Source: Xiphias gladius
Lineage: Eukaryota > Chordata > Actinopteri > Istiophoriformes > Xiphiidae
Length of the DNA: 64,000 bases
Direction: 5' to 3'
NCBI RefSeq assembly: GCF_016859285.1
Contig: NC_053422.1
Span: 15,843,501 to 15,907,500, forward strand
Part shown: piece after piece, positions 1,542 to 61,284 of the stretch
Layout of the letters: every line of letters starts with the position of its first letter
How positions within the stretch are numbered: the stretch's first letter is position 1
The notes under the pieces: model-generated
The model's input: only the letters and a program-made list of their open reading frames with translations
Database searches by the model: none
Told to the model about the DNA's origin: nothing
Made by a program: the position numbers and the translations under genes

Positions 1542-2362
1542 ACTATAGGAGTAACATGCAGCAGTAAATTGTCTCTTGAAAACAAAATAACATATTTAGA
1601 CTACAAGGATTTAGCAGACCCAACATTAGATGCCTATTCCCATACAAAATACTCTTAATGAAAGGATTCAAAAATCAGCAATCATCATTTTTTTTCTTTT
1701 TTTTTACTGTACTGGTTACACGTTGAATTTGCATCCAGAACTTGAATACACAACCAGAACAGCCAGGTTTTATACATTATACAGGAAAGTAATGCATATT
1801 TCTGCGTCTCTTTACAAAATAGATTCATATCAATGTTTCCGTGCACATCAAATGACTGAACTACATTTCTAAAGTAATCTCAAGTTGAGGCTCTATGAGT
1901 ATCTCCTTTGTTTTTGCTGAATTTTCTTTGAGACTCCAGTCAAGCATTACAAAAATCACGTTATGAAGTTGACTATAGAAAGAGATTCATTTCGCATTAA
2001 ATAACTTAGTGATACCGTTTTTCTGAAGGAACATACTCACTCAACATTATAAGCAATGGAAGTAAACTTTGATACATGTGATTCATTTAATTAGATTTCA
2101 TTTAGTATCTAACAGTTATTGTAGTGTTGAATTTGGTGTTGTGACTTAACACACATGTCTAAGTAGGTTTTGAATGTCAAGTCTCTATCACATTTAAGAA
2201 GATTACACGTGATGACGAGCTGTGTTGTGTCTTGTGGTTGTAAATGCAAATTCATAAAAACAAGTACAGGTTTAAACATCTCTTCTTAAGTTACACTTGA
2301 CAAAATTATATGACAACTCTGCAAAAGAAGAGAATTTACTTGTCTAATTAGTAAACCCTTAC
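1542..2362. other. Spacer between exons G2 and G1
   Basis: AT-rich spacer that would be intron for transcripts starting at G2. I see no exon, no RE1 site and no clear repeat besides T-rich stretches. The first bases left of 2363 are the splice donor of G2. Confidence 0.6.
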
Positions 2363-3778
2363 CTTGTCTTTATTGGGTAAAGTCTGAGTCCTGGTAAACG
2401 TGTCTCCTCCATTAATACTGACCAGCTCCGCGTCTACAGACGGAAACGGTGCGGGGAAAACCACTACGTCACTCTTGAGTGTGTCTGAGCTGAAACAGAC
2501 GTCGTACTGCTGAGTAGCTTTAGAGTAAGACCAGCTCCCGTCAGGGTGGGTGGTGATCATTGGGGCGCCGTACCTGCTGAAACTGCCGTCTGACCTGTGG
2601 CACTTGACCGCTATTAAACTGATGAGGCTGAGCAGAAAGATCAGTGACACCGACGCGATGGCGATCAGCAGGTACAGGTTTAAATCGGAGAAGCTCTCCT
2701 CCTTTATGGGCACATGTCTGAACTGAGTCTGGATGTCAGCTGTGCTTTCGACCACCACCACCTCGATAGACACGGTAGCCGACAGGGAGGGTTCTCCGTT
2801 ATCAGAAACCAGGACCACCAGGGGGTGAGTCTTCAGGTCATTGTCACTCATTCTCCTCTTAGTCCTGATTTCCCCGGTGCTGGTTCCGATGCGGAAGAGG
2901 TTGTTTCCTTTGGGCTCAGAGAGGTGGTAAGAGAGCAGCGCATTGTATCCAGAGTCTGCGTCTACAGCCCTGATCTTTGCCACAAAGTATCCCGCTTCAG
3001 CAGAGTAGGGGATGCTCTCGCTGTTAATGGATCCGTGCTCGGAATAGGGCGCGAGAATCGCGGGACTGTTGTCATTCTCATCCAGGATGAAAACGTTCAC
3101 AGTCACGTTGCTGCTGAGCGGAGGAACACCAGAGTCTGTGGCCTGAACTTTAAACTGAAACGTTTTTAGCTCCTCGTAGTTAAAAGACTGCAGACTGACT
3201 ATATCTCCGGTCTCTGAGTTGATGTTTACCATAGTAGAGAGCGGGACTATGTTGTTGTCACCGACTAATGAGTAGCTCACGTGACCATTTTGACTAATGT
3301 CAGCATCAGTAGCTGAAACTGTTTTAATAACTGCCCCTACTGGACTGTTTTCTTTCACGTAGACACTGATGACAGTTTCTGTGAATATAGGTTTGTTATC
3401 ATTCACATCTAAGACGATCATTTCAATCCGGTACAGTTTTAACGGGTTATTAATAACTGCTTCTACGCTGAGGGAACATTTGGGTTCATCGCCGCAGAGT
3501 TCCTCTCGATCTATTCTCTCATTAACGTACAGGACACCAGTCCTTAGATTTACCTCGAAATATTTCCTCTTTGATCCAGAAACGATCTGAAACATACGAG
3601 ACTCCAAATCCTGGACATTAATGTTCAGATCTTTAGCGATGTTTCCGACGACAGTCCCCAGGTTTACCTCCTCTGAGACGGAGTAAGAGAGCTGCCCAGA
3701 CACCGCTTCCCAGCAACAGTCCAGCAGCACGAACAAGAGATATATCCGCACAGAGCTCGTTCTGCCCGGTAAATGCAT
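2363..3778 (-). CDS. Mini-protocadherin, gamma-type variable exon G2 lacking EC2-EC4
   Basis: 472 codons from ATG at 3778 ([20 protein letters not shown]) to a splice donor (AAAGACAAG then GTAAGG). Signal peptide and EC1 are almost identical to those of G5 (12338-14713). At DVNDN the protein jumps straight to EC5 ([20 protein letters not shown]), then EC6, membrane helix and the standard gamma-type tail. G5 has 792 codons; the difference is exactly 320 codons, or 960 bp, so the frame is kept. The joint at 3399-3410 is the 12-base word tcattcacatct, present at both G5 breakpoints (13374-13385 and 14334-14345). Promoter and upstream flank also match G5, while NYEE in the EC5 region and a tail ending NKDK match G3, so it is a chimera. 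By family knowledge EC1-EC4 form the trans interface, so EC1-EC5-EC6 alone should lack normal homophilic binding. It may be a functional oddity or an allele on its way to loss. The ORF itself is intact. Confidence 0.93.
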
Positions 3779-3923
3779 AATTCCATACACGGAGGAGGAG
3801 TATGTTGGCAAATCTGAACAATATGTTGCAGCAACAACGATATCAAGGTCAAGGAAGAAATATTCCAAACAAATACGTTGGCATTTTCACGGCCAAACAC
3901 GACAGCCGTTCTTTGTCGTCCGA

Positions 3924-4033
3924 TCTCTTTGTAACAAAGCCTCGAGATACATCATCATCCTCTCAACCTGGGAGGAGCCCTGAGCCACTGAGGAGGAAGT
4001 TCAAATGTGATGGTCTACAATGTCCCCATGTGG
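3924..4033 (-). promoter_or_regulatory. Promoter of G2 (duplicate of the G5 promoter)
   Basis: Minus-strand core CCACATGGGGACATTGTAGA at 4033-4014, followed by CCAT. Then come GGCTCCTCCCAG (about 3971-3982) and the palindrome GCTTTGTTACAAAGAGA at 3940-3924. The sequence from the gene start to about 4130 closely follows the G5 upstream region, showing that the duplication carried the promoter along. Confidence 0.7.
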
Positions 4034-5340
4034 ACACTTGTAAGAACTGCATTCAATATCAAACACGTAGCAATATTACAAATTCCCCTACATTAATGTC
4101 CTGTGAAACATTTAGCCAAGTCTGAAGTAAAGATATGGTCAATATGACTCTTCCGTTCATTTCACTATTGATTTTCAGCAGGTGCATTTCGCCGTAAAAC
4201 TATCTTAGAATTAAATCAAACAATTGAACACCAGTACAATGAGTCAACTGTTATGGAAATAGAAAACAATGTAGCTGAAAATATAAACACACAGTCTCTA
4301 AAAACATACCCCACACAACGTAAACATACTCACCACCCGCATATACACAAACAAATAGGAAATAGAGAAGTAAAATATGGATAATATCGACATACATACC
4401 CTTCCGAATAATGATTAAATCTGAGAGGATACACTTGTGTGAAAATATACATAAAAATCATAGAGTTGTGTAATTTTATGTTATTAATCAATTTGCTTAC
4501 AGGTTAAAGAGTACAGGCCCCACACATTCACAAACTTCCGCTGTTAACACGGACAGCGATGTTCACTTTGAAAATGCCAAGTATGTTTCAAAAATTACTC
4601 TGAATTTTAATTCCGTAAGGACGAAGTATGCATACGCCAACCTTTCCCAACATTTGAATCCCTTCTGTTCAAACGCCAAGCCCATTTAACTGTCACTTTG
4701 CCCGTCACGTATGTGGGAGAAAGCGCTGATTTCACTAATAAAGACTGCATTGCATTGCCTTCCCGACATAGTGTAATATAGTGCCAAAGTAGTTCACTTG
4801 GTCTAACTTAAAAAAAATAAATAAACAAAAAGAAAAAACAAATCTGAGTTCGCTTAAATACGCCGCCTTTTTTAATTGAAAAACCGATGGCAGATATTTA
4901 ATCTGCACAGATATATTGAAAACGATTAATGAGATCTTTGACATACTTTAGTTTAACATTGCATAAGATACATGTAAATGTACTCATATACAGTATATGA
5001 TACGCTTGAACAGGGTCTTTAATGTAACCTCAGTCTTCTCAGGATTACAAGCCATGCACATTCAGATACTGGCCTTCAGCACCACGGACAGTGGCTTGAA
5101 CATTGAAATAACGAAGAGGCAGCCGGCAACTACTGAGACGAGAAAACCATGACAGAAAATGTCAGTCTACTCCACCTGTACTTGATGTCATATCCGTTTT
5201 AAATCAAATGGTAGTTCAAATTTAATTGTCTTGTCTGTTACATAGCACAAAGCCATTTACAATAACCTAAAACTGCATCTCTTCGCCTCTAATTCTAGAA
5301 ACAGTGCAGTAATAAATACTTAATGCAACTACGTTCTTAC
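4034..5340. other. Spacer between exons G3 and G2
   Basis: AT-rich non-coding DNA. To about 4130 it still aligns by eye with the G5 upstream flank. It holds one RE1 site (5075-5095). I see no other gene or clear mobile element. Confidence 0.55.
5075..5095 (+). promoter_or_regulatory. RE1/NRSE (REST-binding) site
   Basis: TTCAGCACCACGGACAGTGG plus one base, nearly identical to the 21-bp RE1 consensus (TTCAGCACC A/T..GGACAGCGCC). It lies 246 bp 3' of exon G3 and 1.0 kb upstream of the G2 CTCF-like element. REST represses neuronal genes in non-neuronal cells, and RE1 sites are known from Pcdh clusters. Confidence 0.8.
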
Positions 5341-12337: not shown

Positions 12338-14713
12338 CTTCTCTTTGTTGGGTAAAGTCTGAGTCCTGGTAAACGTGTCTCCTCCGTTAATACTGACCAG
12401 CTCCGCGTCTACAGACGGAAACGGTGCGGGGAAAACCACTACGTCACTCTTGAGTGTGTCTGAGCTGAAACAGACGTCGTACTGCTGAGTAGCTTTAGAG
12501 TAAGACCAGCTCCCGTCAGGGTGGGTGGTGATCATTGGGGCGCCGTACCTGCTGAAACTGCCGTCTGACCTGTGGCACTTGACCGCTATTAAACTGATGA
12601 GGCTGAGCAGAAAGATCAGTGACACCGACGCGATGGCGATCAGCAGGTACAGGTTTAAATCGGAGAAGCTCTCCTCCTTTATGGGCACATGTCTGAACTG
12701 AGTCTGGATGTCAGCTGTGCTTTCGACCACCACCACCTCGATAGACACAGTAGCCGACAGGGAGGGTTCTCCGTTATCAGAAACCAAGACCACCAGGGGG
12801 TGAGTCTTCAGGTCATTGTCACTCATTCTCCTCTTAGTCCTGATTTCCCCGGTGCTGGTTCCGATGCGGAAGAGGTTGTTTCCTTTGGGCTCAGAGAGGT
12901 GGTAAGAGAGCAGCGCATTGTATCCAGAGTCTGCGTCTACGGCCCTGATCTTTGCCACAAAGTATCCCGCTTCAGCAGAGTAGGGGATGCTCTCGCTGTT
13001 AACGGATCCGTGCTCGGAATAGGGCGCGAGAATCGCGGGACTGTTGTCATTCTCATCCAGGATGAAAACGTTCACAGTCACGTTGCTGCTGAGCGGAGGA
13101 ACACCAGAGTCTGTGGCCTGAACTTTAAACTGAAACGTTTTTAGCTCCTCGTGGTTAAAAGACTGCAGACTGACTATATCTCCGGTCTCTGAGTTGATGT
13201 TCACCATAGTAGAGAGCGGGACTATGTTGTTGTCACCGACTAATGAGTAGCTCACGTGACCATTTTGACTAATGTCAGCATCAGTAGCTGAAACTGTTTT
13301 AATAACTGCCCCTACTGGACTGTTTTCTTTCACGTAGACACTGATGACAGTTTCTGTGAATATAGGTTTGTTATCATTCACATCTGAGACGCGCACAGTA
13401 ATGACGCTCGTGCTGGAGAGAGGTGGGCTCCCCTCATCAGTAGCGGTGATGCTGATATTGTACTGAGACGCGCTCTCTCTGTCTAGAGGACCGTCCACCA
13501 CCAACGAATAGTAATTCTTATAATTCGACTCTAGTTTGAAAGGAACGTTATTGGAGATTTTGCAGTTCACCATCCCGTTCTTACCTCCGTCCTTATCAAA
13601 TACTGAAACAAGCGCAATAGCTGTGCCAATGGACGCATCCTCTTTCGCGGTGCTCAACAGTGATGTAACTGAGATTTCAGGAGCGTTGTCATTGACGTCT
13701 AAAACTTCGATCAGTAATTTAGCATGTGAGGTAAGAGGAGAAGCTGCTCCATCACTGGCTTGTACTCTAATCTCAAAAGCATTATTCTCTTCAAAGTCGA
13801 TATTCTTTTTATTTGTTACAGTCCCAGTTCTTTCATCTATAGTAAACAGATCCGTTTGTTTCCCTCGACCTGCTTTACTAAATGAATATAAGACTTGTCC
13901 ATTTGAGCCTGCGTCCAAATCAGTAGCGTTGAGTGTTATTATTGACGTGCCTATCTTCACATTTTCATACACACTTGCTTTGTACAGAGTTTGACTGAAT
14001 ACAGGAGCGTTATCATTACTATCCAAGACATCAATTGTAATGACCATTGTTCCTGATTTAGCAGGGTTTCCTCCATCAATGGCGGTCAGTGTGAGTCGAA
14101 TGACAGGCTGTTTTTCTCGGTCCAAAACTTTCTGAAGCACTAATTCGGGAGATACACCCTCTCCTTTATGTGTAGCGAGAGAGAAGTGTTCATTCTGGCT
14201 AAGCCTGTAGGTGTTTACAGTATTTTTACCGACGTCTGCATCGTCAGCAGGATGCAGGGGAAATTTTGCCCCTGCTGCTGTATTCTCACTAATGTTGATG
14301 AACTGTGACGAGCTGAGAAATGTTGGAGAATTGTCATTCACATCTAAGACGATCATTTCAATCCGGTACAGTTTTAACGGGTTATTAATAACTGCTTCTA
14401 CGCTGAGGGAACATTTGGGTTCATCGCCGCAGAGTTCCTCTCGATCTATTCTCTCATTAACGTACAGGACACCAGTCCTTAGATTTACCTCGAAATATTT
14501 CCTCTTTGATCCAGAAACGATCTGAAACATACGAGACTCCAAATCCTGGACATTAATGTTCAGATCTTTAGCGATGTTTCCGACGACAGTCCCCAGGTTT
14601 ACCTCCTCTGAGACGGAGTAAGAGAGCTGCCCAGACACCGCTTCCCAGCAACAGTCCAGCAGCACGAACAAGAGATATATCCGCACAGAGCTCGATCTGC
14701 CCGGTAAATGCAT
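12338..14713 (-). CDS. Clustered protocadherin, gamma-type variable exon G5 (full-length parent of G2)
   Basis: 792 codons from ATG at 14713 ([20 protein letters not shown]). An in-frame extension to 14866 exists, but the conserved start is MHLPGR, as in G2. EC1 has a distinct C-X5-C loop, CGDEPKC, shared only with G2. EC2 ([20 protein letters not shown]), EC3 ([20 protein letters not shown]) and EC4 ([20 protein letters not shown]) are the three domains missing in G2. EC5 starts [20 protein letters not shown]. The 3' block from NINSETGD on is the shared one, with NHEE and a tail ending NKEK. The donor is AAAGAGAAG then GTAAGA. Confidence 0.95.
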
Positions 14714-15910: not shown

Positions 15911-18292
15911 CTTGTCTTTATTAGGTAAAGTCTGAGTCCTGGTAAACGTGTCTCCTCCATTAATACTGACCAGCTCCGCGTCTACAGACGGAAACGGTGC
16001 GGGGAAAATCACTACGTCACTCCTGAGTGTGTCTGAGCTGAAACAGACGTCGTACTGCTGAGTAGCTTTAGAGTAAGACCAGCTCCCGTCAGGGTGGGTG
16101 GTGATCATTGGGGCGCCGTACCTGCTGAAGCTGCCGTCTGACCTGTGGCACTTGACCGCTATTAAACTGATGAGGCTGAGCAGAAAGATCAGTGACACCG
16201 ACGCGATGGCGATCAGCAGGTACAGGTTTAAATCGGAGAAGCTCTCCTCCTTTATGGGCACATGTCTGAACTGAGTCTGGATGTCAGCTGTGCTTTCGAC
16301 CACCACCACCTCGATAGACACGGTAGCCGACAGGGAGGGTTCTCCGTTATCAGAAACCAAGACCACCAGGGGGTGAGTCTTCAGGTCGTTGTCACTCATT
16401 CTCCTCTTAGTCCTGATTTCCCCGGTGCTGGTTCCGATGCGGAAGAGGTTGTTACCTTTGGGCTCAGAGAGGTGGTAGGAGAGCAGCGCATTGTATCCAG
16501 AGTCTGCGTCTACGGCCCTGATCTTTGCCACAAAGTATCCCGCTTCAGCAGAGTAGGGGATGCTCTCGCTGTTAACGGATCCGTGCTCGGAATAGGGCGC
16601 GAGAATCGCGGGACTGTTGTCATTCTCATCCAGGATGAAAACGTTCACAGTCACGTTGCTGCTGAGCGGAGGAACACCAGAGTCTGTGGCCTGAACTTTA
16701 AACTGAAACGTTTTTAGCTCCTCGTGGTTAAAAGACTGTAGACTGACTATATCTCCGGTCTCTGAGTTGATGTTCACCATTGCAGATAATGGCAATGAGT
16801 CACTGTTACTTTGTAAAAATGAATAGCTCACCTGGCCATTTTGATGGATATCAGCATCAACGGCAGCCACTGTCTTAACAACTGCTCCTACTGCACTATT
16901 CTCTTTCACATAAACATTAACCATCGGCTCCGAGAAGCGAGGTGGGTTATCATTGACATCAGAAACACGAACAGTAACTATGTTTGTGCTGGATAGAGGT
17001 GGACTCCCTTCATCAGTTGCTACGATAGTAACATTGTACTGGGCCTTAGTTTCTCTGTCAATTGGACCATTGACTACTAAAGAGTAATAATTTTTATAGT
17101 TTGTGTCCAGCATAAATGGGACATCATTCACAATTACAGCTTTTACTGCCCCGTTTTTCCCGCTGTCTTTGTCCAGTACAGAAACAAGCGCAATAGCTGT
17201 ACCTACTGTTGCGTCCTCCTTCACTGAGTTCAGGAGTGACGTCACAGTGATCTCGGGAGCGTTGTCGTTGAGGTCCACCACTTCTACCAGCACCTTACAA
17301 TCAGCAGACATTGGAGGCTGACCTCTGTCACTGGCCTGTGCTCGAATCTCAAACGCAGGATTTTCTTCGTAGTTGATTTGACCTTTGACTAAAATCGCAC
17401 CTGTCTTAGAGTCTATTTCAAACAAATCTAAAACCTGATCCTGACCTTTACTTCTCAGCGAGTATTCTACTTCACTGTTTAAACCATCATCTGCATCCGT
17501 CGCATTCAGAGTGATAACTTTAGACCCTGTTGGCAAGTTTTCGGGAATCTGAATTTTGTATAACGATTTACTGAAAACGGGGGGATTGTCATTATTATCC
17601 AAAACTGTGATAATAATTTGTGAGGTTCCTGACTTCGGTGGATTTCCTCCGTCTACTGCAGTTAGTGTGAGTTTTATAACAGAGTCGTGCTCCCGGTCTA
17701 AAGCCTTCAGCAGTACTAAATCAGCAGAAACGCTGTCTCCCCCTTTGTGAATTTCCAGAGAAAAATAATCATTATTACTAAGCTTGTATATAGTAACACC
17801 GTTCTTACCTACATCCAAATCTGATGCCTCTATCAGTCCAAATTTCAGTCCTGGTAAAGTACTTTCTGAAATGTCAAGTGACTGCAGTTGCTCAGAGAAA
17901 ACGGGTGCGTTGTCATTTATATCTACTATAGTTATCTCTAAACGATAAAGCTTCAGTGGGTCATTGATCACGGCCTCGACACTGACAGTACATTTTGTAG
18001 CCTTCGCACAGAGCTCTTCCCGGTCTATTCTCTCATTCACATAAAGAACCCCCCTTTTCAGATTAACGTCGAAATATTTTCTCTTTGACCCGTTAACAAT
18101 CTGAAACATGCGAGACTCTAACTCGTGGACATTGAGGTTAAGGTCCTTAGCGATATTTCCAACAGTAGTCCCCGGGTTTACCTCCTCTGAGACGGAATAC
18201 GAGAGCTGCCCAGACGCCGCTTCCCAGCAATAATTCAGCAGCACGAAAAGGAGATATATCCGAAAAAGGTTCGATTTGGTGGAGAAATACAT
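15911..18292 (-). CDS. Clustered protocadherin, gamma-type variable exon G6
   Basis: 794 codons from ATG at 18292 ([20 protein letters not shown]). A further in-frame ATG at 18349 would put 19 residues with a hydrophobic stretch ahead of the signal peptide and is less likely. EC1 carries [20 protein letters not shown], and EC2 has [20 protein letters not shown]. From the end of EC2 ([20 protein letters not shown]) through EC6 the protein is almost identical to G7, with only scattered changes such as INYEE/IDYEE and VIVND/VIEND. The two therefore differ mainly in EC1 and EC2. The tail carries [11 protein letters not shown], where the siblings have [11 protein letters not shown]. Donor GACAAG then GTAAGA. 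Confidence 0.95.
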
Positions 18293-19374: not shown

Positions 19375-21756
19375 CTTTTCTTTGTTGGGCAGCGTCTGAG
19401 TCCTGGTAAACGTGTCTCCTCCATTAATACTGACCAGCTCCGCGTCTACAGACGGAAACGGTGCGGGGAAAACCACTACGTCACTCTTGAGTGTGTCTGA
19501 GCTGAAACAGACGTCGTACTGCTGAGTAGCTTTAGAGTAAGACCAGCTCCCGTCAGGGTGGGTGGTGATCATTGGGGCGCCGTACCTGCTGAAACTGCCG
19601 TCTGACCTGTGGCACTTGACCGCTATTAAACTGATGAGGCTGAGCAGAAAGATCAGTGACACCGACGCGATGGCGATCAGCAGGTACAGGTTTAAATCGG
19701 AGAAGCTCTCCTCCTTTATGGGCACATGTCTGAACTGAGTCTGGATGTCAGCTGTGCTTTCGACCACCACCACCTCGATAGACACGGTAGCCGACAGGGA
19801 GGGTTCTCCGTTATCAGAAACCAAGACCACCAGGGGGTGAGTCTTCAGGTCATTGTCACTCATTCTCCTCTTAGTCCTGATTTCCCCGGTGCTGGTTCCG
19901 ATGCGGAAGAGGTTGTTTCCTTTGGGCTCAGAGAGGTGGTAAGAGAGCAGCGCATTGTATCCAGAGTCTGCGTCTACGGCCCTGATCTTTGCCACAAAGT
20001 ATCCCGCTTCAGCAGAGTAGGGGATGCTCTCGCTGTTAACGGATCCGTGCTCGGAATAGGGCGCGAGAATCGCGGGACTGTTGTCATTCTCATCCAGGAT
20101 GAAAACGTTCACAGTCACGTTGCTGCTGAGCGGAGGAACACCAGAGTCTGTGGCCTGAACTTTAAACTGAAACGTTTTTAGCTCCTCGTGGTTAAAAGAC
20201 TGTAGACTGACTATATCTCCGGTCTCTGAGTTGATGTTCACCATTGCAGATAATGGCAATGAGTCACTGTTACTTTGTAAAAATGAATAGCTCACCTGAC
20301 CATTTTGATGGATATCAGCATCAACGGCAGCCACTGTCTTAACAACTGCTCCTACTGCACTATTCTCTTTCACATAAACATTAACCATCGGCTCCGAGAA
20401 GCGAGGTGGGTTATCATTGACATCAGAAACACGAACAGTAACTATGTTTGTGCTGGACAGAGGTGGACTCCCTTCATCGGTTGCTACGATAGTAACATTG
20501 TACTGGGCCTTAGTTTCTCTGTCAATTGGACCATTGACTACTAAAGAGTAATAATTTTTATAGTTTGTGTCCAGCATAAATGGGACATCATTCTCAATTA
20601 CAGCTTTTACTGCCCCGTTTTTCCCGCTGTCTTTGTCCAGTACAGAAACAAGCGCAATAGCTGTACCTACTGTTGCGTCCTCCTTCACTGAGTTCAGGAG
20701 TGACGTCACAGTGATCTCGGGAGCGTTGTCGTTGAGGTCCACCACTTCTACCAGCACCTTACAATCAGCAGACATCGGAGGCTGACCTCTGTCACTGGCC
20801 TGTGCATGAATCTCAAACGCAGGATTTTCTTCGTAGTCGATTTGACCTTTGACTAAAATCGCACCTGTCTTGGAGTCTATTTCAAACAAATCTAAAACCT
20901 GATCCTGACCTTTACTTCTCAGCGAGTATTCTACTTCACTGTTTAAACCATCATCTGCATCCGTCGCATTCAGAGTGATAACTTTAGACCCTGTTGGCAA
21001 GTTTTCGGGAATCTGAATTTTGTATAACGATTTACTGAAAACGGGGGGATTGTCATTATTATCCAAAACTGTGATAATAATTTGTGAGGTTCCTGACTTC
21101 GGTGGATTTCCTCCGTCTACTGCAGTTAGTGTGAGTGTTATTGTAGGTTGTGTTTCTCGGTCTAAAGATTTCTGAAGCACAAGCTTGGCGGACACACTCT
21201 CCCCCCCCTTGTGAATCTCTAAAGAAAAATAATCATTTGGACTCAGCTTGTACGTACTAACACCGTTCTTACCAACGTCGAGATCTGACGCCCCGATAAA
21301 CCCAAACTTCGCTCCCGGCACTGTACTTTCAGCAATGTTAAGAGACTGCAAATTCTCAGAGAAATGTGGTGCATTGTCATTTATATCGACTACATTTATC
21401 TCCAAACGATAAAGCTTCAGCGGATTGTTGATCACGGCCTCTACATTGACGGTGCACTTTGTAGCCTTCGCACAGAGCTCCTCGCGGTCGATTCTTTCAT
21501 CGACATAAAGAACACCCGTTTTCAGATTTACATCGAAATATTTTCTCTTTGATCCGCTAACGACCTGAAACATGCGAGACTCTAACTCGTGGACATTGAG
21601 ATTAAGGTCCTTAGCGATATTTCCAACAGAAGTCCCCGGGTTTACCTCCTCTGAGACGGAATACGAGAGCTGCCCAGACACCGCTTCCCAGTAACAGTCC
21701 AACAGAAAAACGACTATATAAATCCCAGAAGGGCTGCATATCCTCCGCGCGGACAT
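19375..21756 (-). CDS. Clustered protocadherin, gamma-type variable exon G7
   Basis: 794 codons from ATG at 21756 ([20 protein letters not shown]). Upstream in frame there is only TTG at 21768, so the ATG is preferred. Mature start [22 protein letters not shown]1 has CAKATKC, EC2 has [22 protein letters not shown]3-EC6 are near copies of those of G6, EC4 and EC5 included ([33 protein letters not shown]). The tail ends TQTLPNKEK, encoded with a CTGCCC codon pair shared with G8 (leucine-proline, against the TTACCC of the others), so tails of G7 and G8 seem to have exchanged sequence. Confidence 0.95.
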
Positions 21757-25209: not shown

Positions 25210-25324
25210 TCCGTCTCTTTATAACAAAGACTGAGGAAACGTCCCTATCGCCTGAAAACAGGAGGGGCTTAGTTGTATCAGAGAGTAGCGCCGTCTCTGA
25301 TGGATCAACAGCGACGCCACGTGG
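25210..25324 (-). promoter_or_regulatory. Promoter of G8, diverged CTCF-like element
   Basis: Minus strand 25324-25300 reads CCACGTGGCGTCGCTGTTGA then TCCAT. It keeps CCACGTGG and gains CGCT but has one extra base and has lost TAGACC. AAGCCCCTCCTGTTTTCAGG and GTCTTTGTTATAAAGAGACG (the palindrome with one change) follow. Confidence 0.6.
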
Positions 25325-25390
25325 GAAAGAACGTAACATGCAGAGGGCAGTGAAAACATCATATGTCGCCTCATAGGCAGCCATTAAGTC

Positions 25391-25420
25391 TCCCCCTCTC
25401 TCATTCTCTCTCTCTCTCAC
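25391..25420. repeat. CT-rich simple repeat
   Basis: TCTCCCCCTCTCTCATTCTC followed by more CT units; low complexity. Confidence 0.7.
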
Positions 25421-25486
25421 ACGCACGGAAATAATCGTACGTTGTGTTGAAGAGCGTAAGAAAACCAAGAGAGCTGGGAATTACCT

Positions 25487-25507
25487 TTCAGCACCATGGA
25501 CAGCATC
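25487..25507 (+). promoter_or_regulatory. RE1/NRSE (REST-binding) site
   Basis: TTCAGCACCATGGACAGCAT plus C, an almost perfect RE1. It lies 163 bp upstream of the G8 element. Unlike the other left-group sites it has no exon 200-260 bp to its right, so it is either G8's own silencer or what is left of a lost exon's 3' flank. Confidence 0.82.
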
Positions 25508-27825
25508 TTAGAGTGTGTCCCAGGTGCAAAGCCTGTTCTGCCCGTCTTGATGCACGGTGGCTGTGTCCAGACCGTGCATGTGTTAAAACATGATGCACTC
25601 GCCCCAAACGCACACAAACACTCTCTGCAGCTCACACTGCCTTCCACCTCTCTACCCCACGTCTTTTTTCCCATTCATATAATTTAGCCAGTAATTCGCA
25701 CTAATTGTGTACACTGTGTCAGTGAGGTTGGTTTCAGTTTTGATGAAATGGCGACACTGGGCTTCCATAGCTACCAAAAATTGCGACATCCAGCCATTTA
25801 TTTCGGGTATCCTGCTCTGGAGGCAATTTCTCAATATCACCCAGGATCTCTATGATAAATTATCAGCCACTCTTTGCCCAATAGTTAGGACTTTAATCTT
25901 TCATTCACGTCTTTTTACTTTGTTAGTATCAAATTATCACATACTGTTTTTTATAAACAATGATTTCAGTCATAATGTATATTTTTACAAGTGTAATAGA
26001 GGGCTTAGCACAGCCAAAAATTGTAGAATTATTAATACATTTTCTTCCCACTGGACCCATGTAACTCCCTTCTCCCTTTCTCTTTGTTTTTTTGTGTCAG
26101 CCTTGAGGCCAATAAATGAATTTAATTGGACCCTGTTGTCCTGCAGCATGCATGCACACAGGAGGGACGTCTGGGTGCTGTGGTGTATTTCGGTGTATTT
26201 CAGTGTTTCTCCCCATTTTCACAGAGAGTGTTGTCATGGGCTTAGGAACATTCCCTCGTTTGTAATCCTAGGATTAAGCCCTGGATTCAGAAACTCCTGT
26301 CCTATTTCCATTCTGTTGGAAACATGATTTGATTTGAAAATATTAATAACCATCACACACTGAGCTGCAGTCATCTGTTAACCCCAAAATGCAATAATAA
26401 TAATAGCACACAAAGGTATGACCTGTGTGCTCAATTTTCCTAATGTATTGCAAGAGAAAATTGTATGTACTGTAGACAAGGACAATAGGTAGCATTTACA
26501 TGTAGGTTATTAACATACATACAACCACGCACGCACGAAATTCACCTGGCCCATCAGACCCAGACAGCCCATGATGAAATTTAGAGATTCATAGTTTATT
26601 TGTAGGTCACTTTCTATGCTGCAGCGACCTTACAGGACTTCGGCCTGGATTACTTTTCTCATAAAATCAGCATGACACATATGGATCATGATGCTAGAGT
26701 TTTACTCAGCATTGTAAAGAGAATTTATCCTTTAAAACGCATCCGTTCTGCTTTGTGGCCTGCTGACCCCGTGACCTTATTTTGTAGGCTAAATGAACAA
26801 GCCATTTAAATGTGTTAGAAACAGCTGCACACAACTCTCCAATAAGTCATAAAAAAAGCTACAATAGTGTCTACATTTACAATCTACGTGTAAAAATACA
26901 CCACATAGCCCACATACGGTATATGAACGAAAGTAGAGGGGATGTAGTACTGAATCCAACGTGAGAGCAAAGTCGGGGCCTGTCACTGAGCATGCCCAAT
27001 AGGACGTGCAGGAAACACCGATTGTGTCACGGGGATGTAAAAGATGCTGAACACGCAGAGCATCCTCTTCCAATGCCAGATACAGCTCCTCTGGGAAGCA
27101 TCCGCAGAGGGGTCAGATAATCTACATACACTCAAATGAAGATGCACGTGTGTGCCGCTTTATTGATATTGTTTTAGTTGATTAACCAGGTCCTCATAAA
27201 GACAGTATTTCAGCTTTTATTTATGAACTCTGTGTGCATTGATGAAAGTTGCATTTCCTGAGGATATGATAATTGAATTTGCTGAATAATTAATAGTGAA
27301 TAAATGGTGGTTAAGAAAAATACACAGTATTTGCTCCGTGTACACAGGGAGCTGTGAATATTAAATCAAGTGGTTAAATACATATGTGCCTGTTAACCTG
27401 CTTGTCTGTCTGCAGTTTACCTATTACATGATACAGTTAAAGGAGAAACAGTACAGAGGAGAGAGAGCAGTGTGATCAAAGGAGGAGAGGGAGCAGTGAG
27501 TGGTGGGTGGGGGGTTAATGGCATGGGCCGAAGCGGTGGACAGCAGTGTTTTAGGTGTGTTCACTGCATTATTAAAGAGCTACCACCACATATAGTCACC
27601 AAATTAACTCCTTTAACTCCTCCATACTAATGATTCCGTTATAGTCCTTTGCATAGCCATCGGTTGTGTGTGTGTGCGCTTGTGAGTAAGTGTGTGTTAT
27701 AAGGATGTGTAATGTATTGTTCATCTGTGTGTGAGGAGATGGGGGAAGGGTGCTATCTGAACATGCTTCAAGGCTAGTACCCACCCACCAACCCCCTTTC
27801 CGCTCTCCTTTTGCACAGCTCCCTT

Positions 27826-27839
27826 GTCTCCATAGCAAC
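27826..27839 (+). promoter_or_regulatory. RFX X-box-like motif
   Basis: GTCTCCATAGCAAC is a close match to the RFX consensus (GTNNCC, short spacer, GGYAAC family). It is followed by GCC in a conserved-looking, GC-richer patch of the gap. Confidence 0.45.
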
Positions 27840-27870
27840 GCCATCTCAGGCACAGACATGATGCATATAT

Positions 27871-27871
<1 letters not shown>

Positions 27872-27902
<31 letters not shown>
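27872..27902. repeat. (CA)n microsatellite
   Basis: About 15 CA units. Confidence 0.95.
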
Positions 27903-27905
<3 letters not shown>

Positions 27906-28413
27906 TGCAGAAGCCTATGGGTTTATTTTTCAAAAGGCATGGGATAGTATATAAAGTAATTCACTGGATTCCTTACACACTTCCACATTTGTATCTGCTA
28001 ATGTTCAGTTTCATGCTGCCCTTTCATCTTTCTGAGCAAGTCGGACCACATCATAGTGACAGCCGCAAAATACGCCCACACACCCAGGCAAACACAAAAA
28101 CTACACTCCTATGCATACCAGACCAGACTGTCCAGGGCACAAGTTGGGCTTCTCATGCATTGGTAATGTAGCACTGCGCACCATATTCACTATGACAGAT
28201 CCACTTTAGCAGCAGCGCCTGCTTCTCTTACCACCCCCACAGCCCCACAGAGAGCCTGACCTTTGCATTCAGCCATGCCCAACCCACTGTACCCTCTCTG
28301 GGCCAGGGCTCTGGAGACCACCCCCACATCTGCAGTCTGCACACTACACCCTGCTTCATGTGACGGGAATCTGATGTCACGGTGCTGTTTTTGTGTGGAT
28401 TAGAGCTCATCAC

Positions 28414-28430
28414 GGCACGAGGGGGCAACC
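28414..28430 (+). promoter_or_regulatory. CTCF-like site in the gap, convergent with right-group promoters
   Basis: GGCACGAGGGGGCAACC fits a CTCF core (GAGGGGGCA) on the plus strand. The promoter elements of the right group lie on the minus strand to its right, so the pair is convergent, as in mammalian alpha-promoter/enhancer loops. One motif seen by eye; occupancy is unknown. Confidence 0.45.
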
Positions 28431-30349
28431 TACTCCTTGTGCATCTTTCCTTCTTTACTCAGTACCCACCTTCTAGTACTATATTATGCTTATTATTCAG
28501 ATGTATTCCTCCTCATTTTTTCCATATAGAGACACTGCTGAACCTAATTCCCCTAGTCCACATTCTCTGGTGATTCTCTGACAAACAGCTGTGATATGGC
28601 TCGTACAGCACTCGCTTTTAGCAACAGTGTGACTAGAACCACACCCAAATGCAGCAGTACACCAATCACTTAGATCTGCTGATAAAGTAGATGGATGAAA
28701 AGAGATAAGGAGGTAAAAATACTGGTATAATGTAATAGAAACATACCACTGGGAGGTGAAATTGCATTATAGGAACACAAATGAATTAAAAAGTGACGGA
28801 GGAAGGGAAATGAGACTCGGAAGATAAAGAAGTCTAAAAAGAGAGTAATGTACTTGGTTTTCCCTGAGAGGAATATTTTCCAAATAGAGAATTAACTCCC
28901 TATCTACCATAGGACACTGAGGTTTCAAAAATCTTTTTGTATTTTAAATCAGAATCCCCAGCCATGCACAGACACGTGTAGAACCCTATATAATACTGTC
29001 CGTTTAGTAGGTGACTAGACTCACATGTGTTAACAGTACACATGAACAGTTACGCAAAGGTATAATCTAAACAGACATATGGCATGAGAAAGAAACAGTG
29101 AAAGAGTTGGAGGGGGAATCACTCCTAGAATTTAATCCAACTACCACTTAATCATTTATTTCCAAATCTGTGCTCGCTTCCACTGGTTTCTGGAATAAGT
29201 AGGACAGGGGCGGGTCCATGGAAACATGAGCCGGAACAAGATGAAAAGCAGGACACAGCAATATGGAGCATGCCCAAACACACACATGCACTTACCCCTG
29301 AGATAAAATTAGAGGCACACCAATACAGTGTTCACTCATTTGGAAAGCAATGGTACAATGCCCAAAACTCACTTAATTAGTTACTCTACTGTAAAACATA
29401 AGCCAGGAGAAACAGCATGCAGTTGTTGCTGAAGTGGTTGTTCCATTCAGTGGTGTCATGAGCTGTCATTGCTCAGCGAGGGAGACAGGACAGTAGAATT
29501 TAGATTTTAATTCAGCACATGTAGTCAGTCTACATACCTAGTATGCCTACAACGCTAGGAATACAATACTGTGTATGCTTCTTTATGATTTTACAGATAC
29601 TTTACGTAATGTCTTAGCCTCTCCGTTAATGCACCCGCTCTAGCTATTTGTTTCTATTAAGTATAAGGACATTCATAAAATTGTGTCAGTGTACAAATGA
29701 TCAGTAGCGCAAAGGGCCAGTGGTTTGCGAAAGCCAAAATATCCTCCTCATAACAGAGCTATGCAATCACAATTTCAGTCTTTACACACACTCAACAGAA
29801 GCAAGGTGTGTTATTGAACCTGTAATGTTAAATATACAGTAAGTAATACTAAGCATTTATACAGCATGAACTGCAGAGGCTCTGTAGGAAGTAATGATCA
29901 GGGTTTTTGTTTTGCTTGTGTTTGTGTCTGTGTAAGAGAGGTGTGAGGGTGAGAAAATGAAAGGATGGGAGAGAGGAAGACAAAGAGAATCTATGTATCT
30001 GTGCATGAATTTAATTATATATATACTTCATTGTAGAAAAGTGAGAATGTCATACGTCTCTCCCTCTATGAAAAAATATTTTAAAAACATCTAACCCAGC
30101 AATCAGGTTATGATTGCAGAGGCACAGTCATGGTTTGCTTTCACAGATCATTACTGTCAATAAAACAGGATGGATTATATGCTTTGGTAACAGCAAAGGT
30201 ACCATAGAGATGTGATTGGTCACCTAGAATCAGTGCAACTGTAATCAACACTCTGATTGGCTCAACATTGTGCCTAGAGACAAAGGCAGTGTCTGATAGA
30301 TCTCGTCTTACACAGGGAGAACCCGTCATTGAGTACTATTTCCCCTCTT

Positions 30350-30363
30350 GTATCCATGGTGAC
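30350..30363 (+). promoter_or_regulatory. Possible RFX X-box-like motif
   Basis: GTATCCATGGTGAC, with the half-sites of an X-box, lies at the edge of a C-rich patch. Weak on its own. Confidence 0.3.
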
Positions 30364-31940
30364 GCAGATGCGGCCCCTGTCAGTGCCCCTCCCTTCACCC
30401 CCCTCCTCTGCACCCCTCTTTATGAGCACTCAGTATATATGGCAAGGACAGGGCATTTATTTTTCCCATTTCACTAACATACAAACACCTATAAACTCAT
30501 AAATATGGGTCGCGCTTGACTAAAACACATTCATTTTTCCATATTCTGCACATTCACCTATTTAACAGAGGATTCACACGCTCCCTGTACACTCTCTGTC
30601 TCCCTTGTTCTCTTTCTCTGTCTCTCAGTCACGCACAGACACAGCCTAAAACAAACAATTTTACTGGGATTAAGAATAAATCTAGCTTTATAGTCAGACA
30701 TGGCTAACCTAGATTTTTCAAACTGTTCACTGGGGGAGAGGGCATGGACTGTGTTTGGCTTAAATCAGACAGAATGGAAAATGGAACCGGACCTGCTATC
30801 TGACACATCAATACTGACACAAAAACTCAATAACAATACCAATCAATACAGCACCGTGTGCAAAATGGCTGCATGCTTAAAAAATTGAATGTATTGACAC
30901 ACAGACACACATACTGCACAAAGGAAGTGGCAAGTAATTTCCACTTTTTGCCACAAGGAGGAGACTTTTCACCCTTTTCTTTGTTCTCCATAGCAGGCTC
31001 CACATGCACAGGCAGACACACTGGTGTCTGAAGCAGGCAGAGCTATAAAGCCTTATATTAGATTAGCACACTCACACATTCCAAAAATTGTATCAGTGGT
31101 ACAGATACGCTAGCGGCCGCGGTGTCTGCCACGCATTTCCCCTGCCTGCGGAAATTAAAATGTCAACTCTCCCAAAGGGGAAAGGAGATGGAGTGGACGT
31201 ATCTAACAATGCCTGTACATTCCCATTCGTGCTGATACATATCAAAACAGAGAGATAAAGACAGAGATACTTCCATCATCCACAACTGAAGATTATGCAG
31301 AATTTATGGTTTCTTTAATGGAGTACTAGCATATATTGTAGTTTACATCATTCACATACTAAGAAAAAATACATAACAGCAACTGTAAAACATAGTTTAT
31401 CCAAACTTTGGTGTCTCATTTATATTTTCCTTGCATCAGCACATTATATGTGTGTCTATATATCAATATAATATTGTGTAATGTCTATTTTTACTGTCTT
31501 ATTAGTCATTCAGTACTGAATATGCAGCAGGCAGTGCAGCATCTGAAGTGCATTGCAGGTGCAGGCCTGCTGCACTAGGGCTTGGCCCATTTCTTCCTCT
31601 TCAAAAAAAAGGTCTGAATAATAGAGGAGAGTGCTGGCCTGCAGAGATTCTGATTCTGGAAATGGTTGAAATGGTTTGGTGAGGTTGCTCCACTTTCCAC
31701 AGAAAATGAAGATAACTATTTATAAAATAATGACTTGCCTACCAGTCATTTAAGCTCGGGCTCTGTCGCTGTAGCTCTCCGAGAATAGCAAACACCATCT
31801 TCCACTCTCATCAGCATCAAAACTTAAACAGCGACATGGACATCGTCGCAGCATGCGCAGCAACAGAAGCTCCTTATACTGAGGTGACAACGAAAAGAGC
31901 AACATGCATGTTAGCTTGTATGGGTGTGGTATGTTGATTG

Positions 31941-31941
<1 letters not shown>

Positions 31942-31985
<44 letters not shown>
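31942..31985. repeat. (GT)n microsatellite
   Basis: About 21 GT units. Confidence 0.96.
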
Positions 31986-31988
<3 letters not shown>

Positions 31989-32010
31989 TAGAGACAGGTA
32001 GAGGGAGTAA

Positions 32011-32303
32011 TACACTCAGTTGCCAATTTATTAGGTATGCCTGGTTTAAAACTAAGGCACACTAATGCTATAGCCGTGCAATTAATCACACCTTCATGAT
32101 GTTTATAATGTTCAGGTTTTTTAAAATTGTTTTAGAGAGGTGTTACTTCATTGTAATGGTCTTTTTGAGGCTGTAGTTGTGTGTGCTGTTGAACTGTACT
32201 GTGTTATTCTGAAAGGTGTCCATCCCATTTGGTTAGAGTAAATATTGGAAACACCTCTTAGTATAACGCAGTACAGTTCAACAGCACCAAAAACTAGAAC
32301 CTC
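32011..32303. mobile_element. Possible non-autonomous DNA element with internal inverted repeat
   Basis: At 32011-32043 there is a sequence (ACACTCAGTTGCCAATTTAT then TAGGTATGCC) resembling a dispersed repeat I remember from many fish genomes. At 32167-32303 there is an imperfect inverted repeat: GTGCTGTTGAACTGTACTG at 32183 faces CAGTACAGTTCAACAGCAC ending at 32287, and weaker pairing extends outward to GAGGCTGTAG and CTAGAACCTC. No coding capacity. Whether these are one element or two is unclear. Confidence 0.45.
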
Positions 32304-34889
32304 CAATCAACACCCCCTCCATTTGGGCTAAACATTGCCACTGACAGTAAATCAAATACCAAATACATCACAGAAAAGGGGCAACTGAATTTGAAAAAAA
32401 ATCGCAGAAATGTTGCACAAATTTTAACAACAATAACAGAACACAAAGTAAAAACTAAAAAAGCAGCCTGGACTTTAGCCTGGAATTTAAGGGTGAGTGG
32501 TATCCTAACTTACTCTACGTGCTTCTGCCTTTCAAATCTACTCTTCATGGCATCATTAAGATGATTCCACCTAATCGCATTAGAGGAGCACCGTAGTCGA
32601 ATTATCTCTTTACACACTTCACAGAAGCCTTAATCCAGGAGAGCTGGGAATGCTGACAGCAGTGGCACAATGGAAGAAATATATTGACAGAAATTTCCTA
32701 TTAAAAACACTTCAAGGAAAAAGGATAATGTTTTTGATATAAAGCATTAGCATTTACATTTACATTTCCACTGCACTAAATGGTGAAACCAAAACCTAAA
32801 ATGTTGGTTTCACAAAAGTAATATTTACTGCAGGGGTACATTACTTTATAATTCTAGTGTTCTTTCTTTTTTGTTTTTATTATTATTATTATATATCGTT
32901 GTTCCATAAGAAGCATCATCTGCACAACTTACTACTCCAGTTCTCAGTTAAAGGACAAAGCAAAGTGAGTCAGGATTAAGACAAACATTAGGGAGTAAAC
33001 AAGGGCTTAGGGAACAATTATACTCCTGTCTTATCGCAAAGACCCTATTTGGGGTAGTCTGTAAACAAGCAGACCAAACTCCTTGTTATTTTGGTATCAT
33101 GTTTTTTAAGGCCTCTGTTTTCTCTGCTCAATTTTGCTCCTCTTATCCACATTAAACAGATTTTCACTTCATTATCTGTAATGTGATGCTTAGATTATCT
33201 AGCCCGGTATCTACTGTGGACGGTTTAGATTTAGTACGCATGAAAGATTTAGTTTTTTTATTAAATTCGTCACGTGATACTTGATCTTGTTATCTGCTAT
33301 TAAACCCTGCTGATATCTAAACCATCAGACTAAACATGATGTGGCACACTAACAGTGGCAGTGAGGCCTGACCTGTAGGTCATATGCTGCTGAATGTGAG
33401 TTGAGAGACACAGATTAGATGAGAGAGACACAGTTACCACTAAAAGTACATCACAACTGGATGTTATTGATCTGCACAAAGTCTAAGAAATTCATCATTA
33501 AATGAAGAATTTAGTGTTTAAGTGATACGTCAAGCCCTTAGATTATGCGTAGCTAAACGCAGACCTTGAATATGTGACATGCACTTGTATGAATAAAACT
33601 AAAATTTAAGAAAAAGGCAGCGTCTGAAAGACAGCAACTCAACAAAAACCAGTTTTGGAAAATGTAACAACAGCAGATGAAGAATGACAAAAAGGAAGAA
33701 AAATCCTTCTGCTGCATCTGAAAATGATTATTATGTTTTCCAGAAAAGAAGACCTTTTGCTTTAAATCAGATAATTACAATTTTTATTTATTTTTCTAAT
33801 TTATTTTTTACAACGATCACTTTAAGGTTATATTTGAACCCCAAAACAAAAATAAAGCACTTATTATATATAAATGGAGCCATCTTTATGCAACGCAATA
33901 CTGTACTGTTTCTTTAAAACAGTTGTAACAGAAGTTATGATCACCATAGTAATTACTTGTGCAGGGACACACACAAACCCACTAAAACAATAACAGTAGA
34001 GCCCAAGGCTCTACTCCAGGAGAGCTCCATCTTTAAATCGGAGCGACATGTATCACATAGTATGTAAGATGCAACTTGTTTATAATTGCACAACAAGGGT
34101 TAGAGGCAATATCGCAACCCATAATAGAACACAATCAGTCTGACTGTACAGAAATTCCCTTATTTGTATTAAAATAAATATTTTTCATGTGGTATGAGAA
34201 GGACAGGACCATGTGGTGTTTTATATAACAAACCAAACAACACTGTGACCAAACTTTATCCTAAATTAACCAAAATAACTATCCTTACTTTAAACCTAAG
34301 ACAACTTAGGCGTGATTTGAGTAGTGATCAGTAATGCTACAGAAAGTAGGCCGCTTTTAATTGTGAACTTGTGGATACACACACATCGACCTAAAACCCA
34401 GACCAAAAAAAAAATAAAAACTTAGGCTAGTTCAAAATGTTTTTCTTATATTCAAATATATACTGTATGTTTGATATATGGAAAATTTAAGTGTGAAAAC
34501 ATGGCAACACATTTTTTAGACAAATGGGGGTTGAAAAATGGGGGTGGGTACCAATTCAACAGCCTATTTTGAGAATGTTATTTAATGTAAAAACATGCCT
34601 CTGCCTTCTCATGCAGCATATGGAGTAGTTATTTACGGCTGCTAAAGCCAAGTCACTTCCACCACAAATAGCTGAAATAGTCACTTTGGGTTCATATACA
34701 GGACACAGACGCACACAGAAAAAGAGGATAGGTTCAGAGTCTTATGTTCGTGACTCCAAGCTTGAGGTTGTGAAGAGCCAGACTAAGGTTTGGTAGTGCT
34801 TTCCATCTCCCTACTTCTGCCGCAGTCATAAGACCGAGAGACAGAGAAAGGTGCTCTGACATCCTCTGACAGCTCTACTCACAGCCTCA

Positions 34890-35430
34890 GTTTGTGGAGA
34901 AAGAGGAGGTAGGGTTGAGAGGAGAGGCTGTGTCTGTGGTCAGAAAGAGAGAGGAGAATGTAGGGTGATTGATAGCGTAAAGACTAATGGACAAGCATAT
35001 GTACCCTAATAGCAATTAGCAACCAAAATAAGAATAACAGGCTCAAATGAAAAAGAGCGGGGACAGAGAATGAGGGAGAGAGTAATCCAGCCTCCAAAAA
35101 GTACCAGCCATTTTCTATCAGCTTGCAGTTACATGAAGAAACAGGAGGGGGCATAAGAGAGAGTACCAACCAGAGAAAATCAGGATGTGTAGGAGGAGGA
35201 GAGGGATGAAGAAAATCAGAGAAAGGAATTCTTTGTCTAAGGATGAGAATGAAAAGATATGAAAATAACGGGTTGAAGCAACTAGTTAACAAAGGCAGAG
35301 AAACCAGTAAAAGGTGTAGATGAGAGGAATAGCATGCATTGCTGTAGAAAAGTGGGGAGGTGATAATGAGAACAAAGGCAGGGGGAAGAGGGAGAGAGCG
35401 AGCCAGTCGGTGGGAGGAGAGAGTGGGATA
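34890..35430. repeat. GA-rich (purine) low-complexity stretch
   Basis: Strongly purine-biased plus strand with many GAGAG/GGAGG words. Frames on the opposite strand (for example 34984-35292) are leucine/serine-rich by-products. Confidence 0.6.
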
Positions 35431-38400: not shown

Positions 38401-38833
38401 TACTGAAGTAGTGTGAAGTTGATATTCAAGAGTGGTGCATTTGGTTTAAAACGCTGTCAGTGTCACATATAATAGAAAAAGAAACTGGTATGAATTCACT
38501 CCAAAGTGCAGGATTTAAACTTCGATATAAAGGACAATAGGATATAAAGTGAAAATCACAAAATGTAAATGCTGTACCACTTAAAAAAATGTGATCTTAC
38601 ACTTAATCTAACCTGATACAGAGAAGAGACATTTCCCTTCTTTTATCATCCTTCTCTGCCATTTGACGTTCAAAGTACAGCAGTACACAGAGACGAACAA
38701 ACACTTCATTGACAAAATACTCTGTAAGCTGCACTGCAGCAGTGCCTGTGCCTGCTGACATTCACAATATCACCCTACTGATTCACCAAACCCAGGTCGC
38801 CTTAATAGTCCACGGAGTGGAAGTGCTGATAAA

Positions 38834-38877
38834 AACACACACACACTCACACTCACACTCACACACACTCACACTCA
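38834..38877. repeat. CACACT-type microsatellite
   Basis: Mixed CA and CACT units. Confidence 0.85.
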
Positions 38878-40319
38878 CCCCCACATGAGAGTACATGTAG
38901 TATCAACCCAGATAATAAACTGTTCAGCCACATCCGGATTGCATGCAGTTAATGTGTCTCAGTGCAATAGAACCTAAAACAGCAAGTCTTCCTCCATTCA
39001 GTCAAAGACCCACATCATTAATTAGTGAAAAACAACTCTCCAGCCAACCTTGTCAAGTGTAAGTGACTAGTGATTAAAAAAAAGATAATACCCCGTCACA
39101 CAGAAAAAGCAAATGCTTGCTAGCACTGTGAATTAAACGCTGTATGGTTATATGTTAATAGATGAGAAAAACAAGCAGAGGACAAAAGTGGTTTTTCCAT
39201 CATACATTGCTATAGAAAGACAAGTACTAGTAGAAAGTTTAAATACTATTCCATAAGTGTTGTTGCACTGCTAGACTTTAACTCAATGCTACTTGTGTGC
39301 TGTGCCAGCGCAGGTCGGGCTAAACAAAACTATTCGGGTTGTTTCTGTATTGTCAGTGGCAGGCCTAACCTGCTCTACGTTCACCTTTCCTCTTTTTAGA
39401 TATAGAGCTGAGGGGGTTAAATGTTACTGATGAACGTTATGTTCATGGCTAAATACCTGCCTCTGCAATTCAGCTTTATCAAAGTTTTTAAATCATGCAT
39501 AGTGTTTGATTAGCAGATTGAACGAATGCGATTGCTTTTCCGATTGGAAGCTGCGACAGAAATGGGCAGAAAGGAAATGAATGTAATGGTAAAGTGGTGG
39601 GTGGGCTTATCTCAGGGATCACGGAGTCTGACTGTATGGTAAGCGACTTTAAATGACTGACGTGATGGATCAAAGGTAAACAAGGCTTACAGGTGATTAA
39701 AAGCACAACAGTAGAGCGAAACGCCGAGGTGGAATTAAATAGATTAAACCAACATCTTGGCTATAGACCAACCATGCATTCAATTAATAAAGTATACAGT
39801 ATACTGAGTAAGAAGGAACGAGTTACAGTAGCTACACTAAGTCCCATTAATAAACATCATTAAACAGATATATATAATATATTACCTGTGTAATTACACA
39901 CACAATGAGTCCACTCAGTGACATGGGTCAGCCAGTCTTTTTGTTTGGTCAGTTTTGCATGTTTGGAAGCTGTTGTTTGTATCAGGTTCATCTCAGTGTT
40001 GAAAGTTTGGTCTGGGGGCGAAGATTAAACTCTGAAATCATGAAGAAGCCACGTCCTTGTCGTTGCGTGTGTGTCAATGAGCACGAGTGTGCATGTGTGA
40101 AGTGTGAACATAAATATAGCGGCTGTTTTCATTGTACCCTACTGTATGTGTAAATTAGATTACCATCACTGTTGCTGACCTTGATGTGAGTGGCACCATC
40201 CTCCAACGAAGCTCGAGAAACAAGAGACAATGTGCCCCACTGACACACAACAGCACATGATGCATCCACGGCCACAACCCTACAGGCATGAGGCACAGCA
40301 ACTCAGAGCTAAAGAGCGC

Positions 40320-42436: not shown

Positions 42437-42451
42437 GTTGCTATGGGCAAC
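42437..42451 (+). promoter_or_regulatory. RFX X-box-like motif
   Basis: GTTGCTATGGGCAAC is an imperfect palindrome matching the X-box form GTTGCCATGGCAAC with one inserted base and one change. It lies near CCAGGAGGTGGATC (a weak CTCF-like word at 42414) and a pyrimidine tract at 42300-42360, perhaps an enhancer. Confidence 0.5.

Positions 42452-58908: not shown

Positions 58909-61284
<2,376 letters not shown>

Follow-up and report, generated by a model that had tools for sequence, protein, structure and literature searches.

The locus studied here raises the question of how an exon with only three extracellular cadherin (EC) repeats arose within a cluster of six-repeat protocadherin exons, and what its product would do if it were made. 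We refer to this exon as G2. It lies in the window analysed here, the whole 64,000-nucleotide stretch of Xiphias gladius DNA (C23:15843501-15907500, in a 690-Mb genome). Features are collected in Table 1.

Table 1. Features of G2, of its putative source G5 and of the second group of short exons. Positions are those of the window unless C23 is given.
Feature	Position	Strand	Remarks
G2 coding part of variable exon	2363..3778	-	signal peptide-EC1-EC5-EC6-TM-short tail; from open frame, ATG, donor and Pfam
G2 splice donor GT	2361..2362	-	sequence
G2 transmembrane helix, approximate	2606..2677	-	read from sequence
G2 EC6, bounds approximate	2747..3067	-	homogenised across paralog group
G2 EC5, fused straight to EC1	3068..3394	-	no mismatch to G5 in first half (to 3228)
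G2 EC1 and its DVNDN linker, mature residues 1-100	3395..3694	-	0 mismatches to G5
G2 junction, 12-nt word, sense AGATGTGAATGA	3399..3410	-	common to G5 EC1/EC2 and EC4/EC5 linkers
G5-only matching tract	3228..3789	-	signal peptide, EC1 and first half of EC5, plus 11 nt of leader; single mismatch at 3760
G2 5' leader	3790..3923	-	unalignable with G5 leader
G2 promoter block, -146 to -343	3924..4121	-	84% to G5 (202 columns); part 81% to G7
G5, full-length six-EC exon, source of G2 EC1 and first half of EC5	12338..14713	-	alignment
G5 EC4/EC5 linker copy of the word	13374..13385	-	word search
G5 EC1/EC2 linker copy of the word	14334..14345	-	960 nt from EC4/EC5 copy
Exon A (L054/L056)	C23:15983801-15985400		EC1 joined to EC4
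Exon B (L055/L057)	C23:15985981-15987500		EC1 joined to EC4
D, full-length neighbour used as reference	C23:15988201-15990460		

A short exon in a protocadherin alpha array

The window belongs to a tandem minus-strand array of clustered protocadherin variable exons that extends over C23 from about 15.55 to 16.01 Mb. Matches to alpha-type constant exons were found downstream, also on the minus strand, at C23:15790348 (E 2.4e-6), 15786289 (3.2e-5) and 15776656 (1.0e-11), in a search of 214 kb (C23 from 15763501 upward) that used approximate query pieces. The top gamma-type match in the same 214 kb reached E 0.053 and fell on the first of the alpha places. We therefore read the exons of the window as Pcdh-alpha. 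As far as these approximate queries tell, G2 thus has alpha constant exons downstream on its own strand, as clustered Pcdh-alpha exons do.

G2 holds 472 open codons, from the ATG at 3778 to a splice donor (AAG/GTAAGGG) immediately past 2363, where the exon ends in AAAGACAAG and the donor continues as GTAAGGGT. Like G5 and clustered Pcdh-alpha exons, it is a single large exon with signal peptide, EC repeats, transmembrane helix, short tail and donor, preceded by a promoter block, and it departs from them in having three EC repeats instead of six, with EC1 joined to EC5. Pfam places three cadherin stretches in G2 as against six each in G5 and G3, and DxNDN linkers number two in G2 versus five in G5. 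Both the coding sequence and Pfam agree with a preliminary description in which the membrane part and EC6 were kept and EC2-EC4 were gone. The motifs DRE, DVNDN and DAD are the usual cadherin calcium motifs; in the translation of G2, DVNDN is preserved in the linker at the join, with DRE upstream in EC1 and DAD downstream in EC5. Neither a broken frame nor lost signals, the marks of a pseudogene, are seen, and with frame, start and donor all intact, decay of G2 is ruled out.

To place G2 among its neighbours, EC1 and EC5 matches were paired across the cluster, giving at least 101 exons; each of the 101 EC1 places had an EC5 partner, with no unpaired place remaining. One of the underlying match searches had 21 of its 122 rows excluded (3 being second frames of exons that were in the count already, and 18 lying on other contigs or outside the cluster on C23) and the other 35 of 136 (likewise on other contigs or outside the cluster on C23). 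The EC1-EC5 spacing is 1287-1317 nt in 98 exons, leaving three short ones: G2 (342 nt), A (656 nt) and B (595 nt). Normal spacing together with equal EC1 and EC5 frame length, our proxy for one open frame, was found in 88 of the 101, some of which break further on, in EC6; the proxy fails for B, both of whose frames have 272 codons. No spacing indicative of a domain gain was found among the 101 exons, the largest being 1317 nt. Seven candidate mini-exons (C23:15591284, 15594467, 15600485, 15603514, 15609632, 15974392 and 15980968), examples of a larger number, were rejected as frame-broken full-length exons, having spacings of 1297-1316 nt and EC1 and EC5 frames of unequal length.

The array also carries other signs of turnover. 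Between 15.80 and 15.98 Mb of C23, exons are split between frames or contain stops (for example 15839022, 15811585, 15814569, 15974143 and 15964369). Some 18 kb without variable exons (window 25245-43852) separate two paralog groups, and no constant-exon matches fall there. In the second group, the exons at window 58897-61365 and C23:15906516-15909044 share the same 40-residue in-frame start and look like a recent tandem duplicate. G6 and G7 (window 15911-18292 and 19375-21756) differ in EC1 and have nearly the same sequence from late EC2 to the end of EC6, so that homogenisation in some pairs reaches far beyond EC5-EC6. Outside C23, three matching exons (20130093, 20138802 and 20154051) lie at C17:20128785-20154815, possibly left over from a second cluster that arose in the fish genome duplication.

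The join lies in a repeated linker word

The 12-nt word at the join, tcattcacatct, occurs at 3399, 13374 and 14334, with further copies at 10790, 55917 and 59912. The preliminary description had placed it at the G2 join and in the EC1/EC2 and EC4/EC5 linkers of G5, and all three places were verified. In the alignment of G2 with G5 that the same description had proposed, mature coding sequences of 1332 nt and 2292 nt, respectively, are best fitted by one 960-nt gap with 9 mismatches over the 1332 nt. The gap can be placed at 13 equivalent positions, which bracket the word, and its 960/3 = 320 codons preserve the frame, bearing out the claimed exact in-frame loss of EC2-EC4. All nine mismatches lie from mid-EC5 (G5 codon 476) onward. 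Within the mature coding sequence of G5, this word is the only repeat of at least 12 nt. This comparison rejects a chance origin of the join and establishes both the structure of G2 and its exact point of fusion.

G5 coding sequence within foreign flanks

From the ATG to 3399, one of 380 nt differs between G2 and G5, and from 3410 to 3228 none of 183 does, giving one difference in 551 positions across the signal peptide, EC1 and early EC5 when the word is counted once. In 90-nt windows over EC1 and early EC5, G5 is 99-100% identical to G2, apart from a single window at 81%, where four residues at the join were misplaced by the protein aligner. In the same windows, similarity to G2 is 45-87% for the 13 other paralogs, except that G1 reaches 95% in one EC5 window. 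Downstream of the tract, from 3227, there are 9 mismatches to G5 in 865 nt, eight of which also occur in other paralogs; of the 15 exons compared, G2 alone has the ninth, at 3028. Homogenisation across the paralog group has made the stretch from mid-EC5 to the tail a mosaic, which does not single out G5. On the simplest reading, the copied tract would end near 3228 and the remainder would be the older locus's own.

The upstream edge is sharp. The 11 nt before the ATG are fully identical in G2 and G5, while from -19 to -40 the two agree at 8 of the 22 positions. The intron of G2, like its leader, is unalignable with that of G5. The G2 locus is therefore not a duplicate of the G5 locus; G5 is the closest source of EC1 and early EC5, and the flanks are foreign. 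G5 had been described as parent-like, which holds for this part of the coding sequence but not in the sense that G2 is simply a shortened duplicate of G5. Instead, the tract has the features of gene conversion, namely high identity and sharp edges against a diverged background, with the 3' edge blurred by the homogenised block. The promoter block, which contains a conserved core near 4006-4033 that resembles the known CSE/CTCF element, is common to other array exons and would supply G2 with a promoter of its own. As this block is nearer to that of G5 than to those of the other exons compared, the G2 and G5 loci appear to share some older history.

One change in 551 nt corresponds to a divergence of about 0.005-1.0% (95% Poisson range), indicating that the event was recent and is possibly still polymorphic. 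The preliminary description had noted that frame, calcium linker, helix and tail survive. All four are indeed present, but their survival carries little evidential weight, since the event is very young and the part from mid-EC5 to the tail is homogenised across paralogs.

A second domain loss in the same cluster

The other two short exons, A and B, join EC1 to EC4. Compared with D, exon B lacks exactly 651 nt at the join (217 codons, EC2-EC3), with a separate 6-nt gap before it. The join of A and B lies inside ATGAACGACAAC, a 12-nt word common to the EC1/EC2 and EC3/EC4 linkers of D and different from the word used in G2. A has the same join as B, together with extra small indels and a frameshift just before the join, and B carries additional deletions as well as a frameshift within EC5. 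Most simply, A and B would stem from one event followed by duplication. Two further repeats in D were not used in A and B: a second linker-to-linker word of 12 nt, with copies 1296 nt apart, and a non-linker repeat of 14 nt, with copies 580 nt apart and out of frame.

Across 36 full-length open exons (frames of at least 750 codons, D included), we found 21 internal repeats of at least 12 nt with copies more than 60 nt apart. Twelve of these, in 10 exons, run from linker to linker and all are in frame; the remaining nine lie outside linkers, five in frame and four out. Linkers are thus the main source of long internal identity in these exons, so that any jump between them removes whole domains in frame. 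The earlier proposal that the repeating linker code acts as a cassette boundary gains from both the A/B event and this survey. Judged from the exons themselves, linker-registered whole-domain loss has occurred independently at least twice in this cluster, with the older products decayed, and the older, broken A/B case suggests that such loss can recur. A preference for linkers beyond what repeat length explains is supported, but not proved, by two events; selection against out-of-frame losses would also leave the in-frame ones visible.

How G2 arose

The reading that we consider probable is that G2 is a real, very young, short Pcdh-alpha exon, formed when G5 sequence overwrote an older locus and a linker jump skipped three domains. 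As its leader and intron are unrelated to those of G5, the recipient would have been a neighbouring, older locus that had a leader and intron of its own, into which G5 coding DNA was copied. Ectopic gene conversion would have replaced the part of this locus that begins some 11 nt ahead of the ATG and ends in mid-EC5. During copying or soon after, a strand jump from the EC1/EC2 linker to the EC4/EC5 linker, over the 12-nt identity, would have dropped exactly the 320 codons of EC2-EC4. Gene conversion as the process behind the copy is what we infer from the tract, and we favour a single event for copying and skipping. The direction of copying may have been from G5 to G2, or an earlier full-length G2 may have donated to G5 and then undergone deletion.

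This reading overlaps with a two-step history, in which the full G5 coding sequence was first passed to G2 (or from G2 to G5) and 960 nt of G2 were deleted afterwards at the linker word, through slippage or microhomology-mediated end joining. The end product would be identical, and deletion at this point would be easy because the word is the only repeat of at least 12 nt in G5, but both steps must fit into the short time set by one mismatch in 551 nt, and we rate this history as the less likely course, though a serious one. Far less credible is a plain tandem duplication of G5 including its flanks, followed by internal deletion. It would account for promoter blocks that are 84% alike, but one duplication cannot give both the age implied by the 1/551 mismatch in the coding copy and that implied by an unalignable leader and intron. 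With unrelated flanks and sharp identity edges, we reject this explanation as extremely improbable. An assembly artefact in which an intact EC2-EC4 was collapsed at G2 is also very unlikely. In its favour, G2 and G5 are near identical where they can be aligned, but there are 0 N in the 214 kb around G2. Assembly words or overlaps are usually longer than 12 nt, and a join held by 12 nt of identity alone is an improbable product of an assembler. A genome search with 3300-3778 matched 15 places, with full identity over the join in G2 alone; G5 matched as two separate pieces, each ending at the word, and a diverged exon at C23:15833927 (76%) extended 23 nt beyond the join. Together these points weaken the worry about a collapse, though they do not remove it.

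The fate of G2 is a separate matter from its origin. Selection could maintain the three-EC protein for capping recognition chains, as a cis partner without trans activity, and G2 does possess an open frame, a donor and a promoter block; moreover, engineered fragments without part of EC1-4 serve as cis partners (PMC5106212). On the other side, the event is so recent that an open frame says nothing about use, and both other short exons detected in the cluster are broken, their frameshifts providing a precedent for the decay of short exons that counts for a transient G2. We regard a maintained gene as unlikely. Overwriting with a linker jump remains our preferred origin, and its product is most likely a transient by-product of cluster recombination, not yet a maintained gene.

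Predicted behaviour of the protein

In the cis interaction described for clustered protocadherins, EC5-EC6 of one molecule face EC6 of its partner, and trans binding uses EC1-EC4 (PMC8901172). Judged from its coding sequence, in which EC2-EC4 are missing, the G2 protein, if expressed, would keep the EC5-EC6 cis part, helix and tail, and only EC1 of the trans interface. In the parts of PMC5106212 drawn on here, EC1-EC3 fragments behave as monomers and the contact between EC1 and EC4 is indispensable; fragments that keep EC5-6 but miss part of EC1-4 cause no cell aggregation by themselves, and the same fragments co-expressed with alpha-4 let alpha-4 mediate aggregation. By analogy with solved relatives and with the behaviour of such EC5-6 fragments, the G2 protein should be trans-inert and is perhaps cis-competent.

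Its cis competence is uncertain, since mammalian alpha isoforms depend on a carrier to get to the cell surface and take up just the EC5-6 side in a cis dimer, with cis dimerisation not being the sole determinant of delivery (PMC8901172, PMC12157453, as far as the cited passages go). Read by eye from an alignment to gamma-B4, EC6 positions 555, 558, 562 and 595 of G2 are F, K, V and R, three of the four being in the beta/gamma state of PMC8901172, which is weak evidence. If expressed, the protein would, on the same analogy, end recognition chains or act as a non-adhesive cis partner.

Discussion

Gene conversion in teleost clusters is known, whereas here the signal peptide and EC1 appear to have been copied and EC2-EC4 skipped. 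Near-perfect paralog identity in part of an exon, as seen in G2, has likewise been reported for fugu as part of the regional conversion of teleost protocadherins (zebrafish, fugu), but fugu conversion homogenises the 3' half, and the fugu study treated EC1-EC3 as a conversion-free region (PMC1852091, in the parts relevant here). A frog study exempts EC2 and EC3 alone from conversion, which makes the copying of EC1 alone less surprising (PMC4978886, same limits).

Two other systems show partial likeness to G2. Engineered non-adhesive protocadherin carrier fragments keep EC5-EC6 and have a broken trans interface, as G2 does, but they are laboratory gamma constructs, whereas G2 is natural, alpha-type and known from sequence (PMC5106212). 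Arthropod classical cadherins have likewise undergone repeat loss and reductive ectodomain change; that case, as described in the portion of PMC5473995 cited, is ancient, concerns another cadherin class and, unlike G2, involves no jump between linkers within an array.

Variable exons are described as six-EC in the cluster papers, in the parts cited here (PMC1852091, PMC2764143, PMC4978886). No natural clustered protocadherin with fewer than six EC repeats appeared in the titles and abstract openings of open-licence papers, among the matches listed, which is weak evidence. One survey used a 700-residue frame cut-off and filtered out models without six repeats, a procedure by which a 472-residue product would be missed (PMC4978886, as far as its cited text goes). 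The lack of short forms in print may therefore be one of ascertainment.

We consider the importance of G2 to be moderate to high for mechanism and lower for present functional evidence. Within one cluster, whole domains have been lost in frame at linker words at least two times, with one exon still intact. The chain-termination model of neuronal self-recognition could readily be tested with a natural protein that retains the cis part and lacks the trans part. More speculatively, and in our view improbably, the DxNDN code may serve as a recombination register, such that conversion-rich arrays keep making in-frame EC-loss exons, some of which, like G2, would be natural trans-dead caps. If this were true, trans-dead cis partners would cap recognition chains and thereby change the effective self-identity code.
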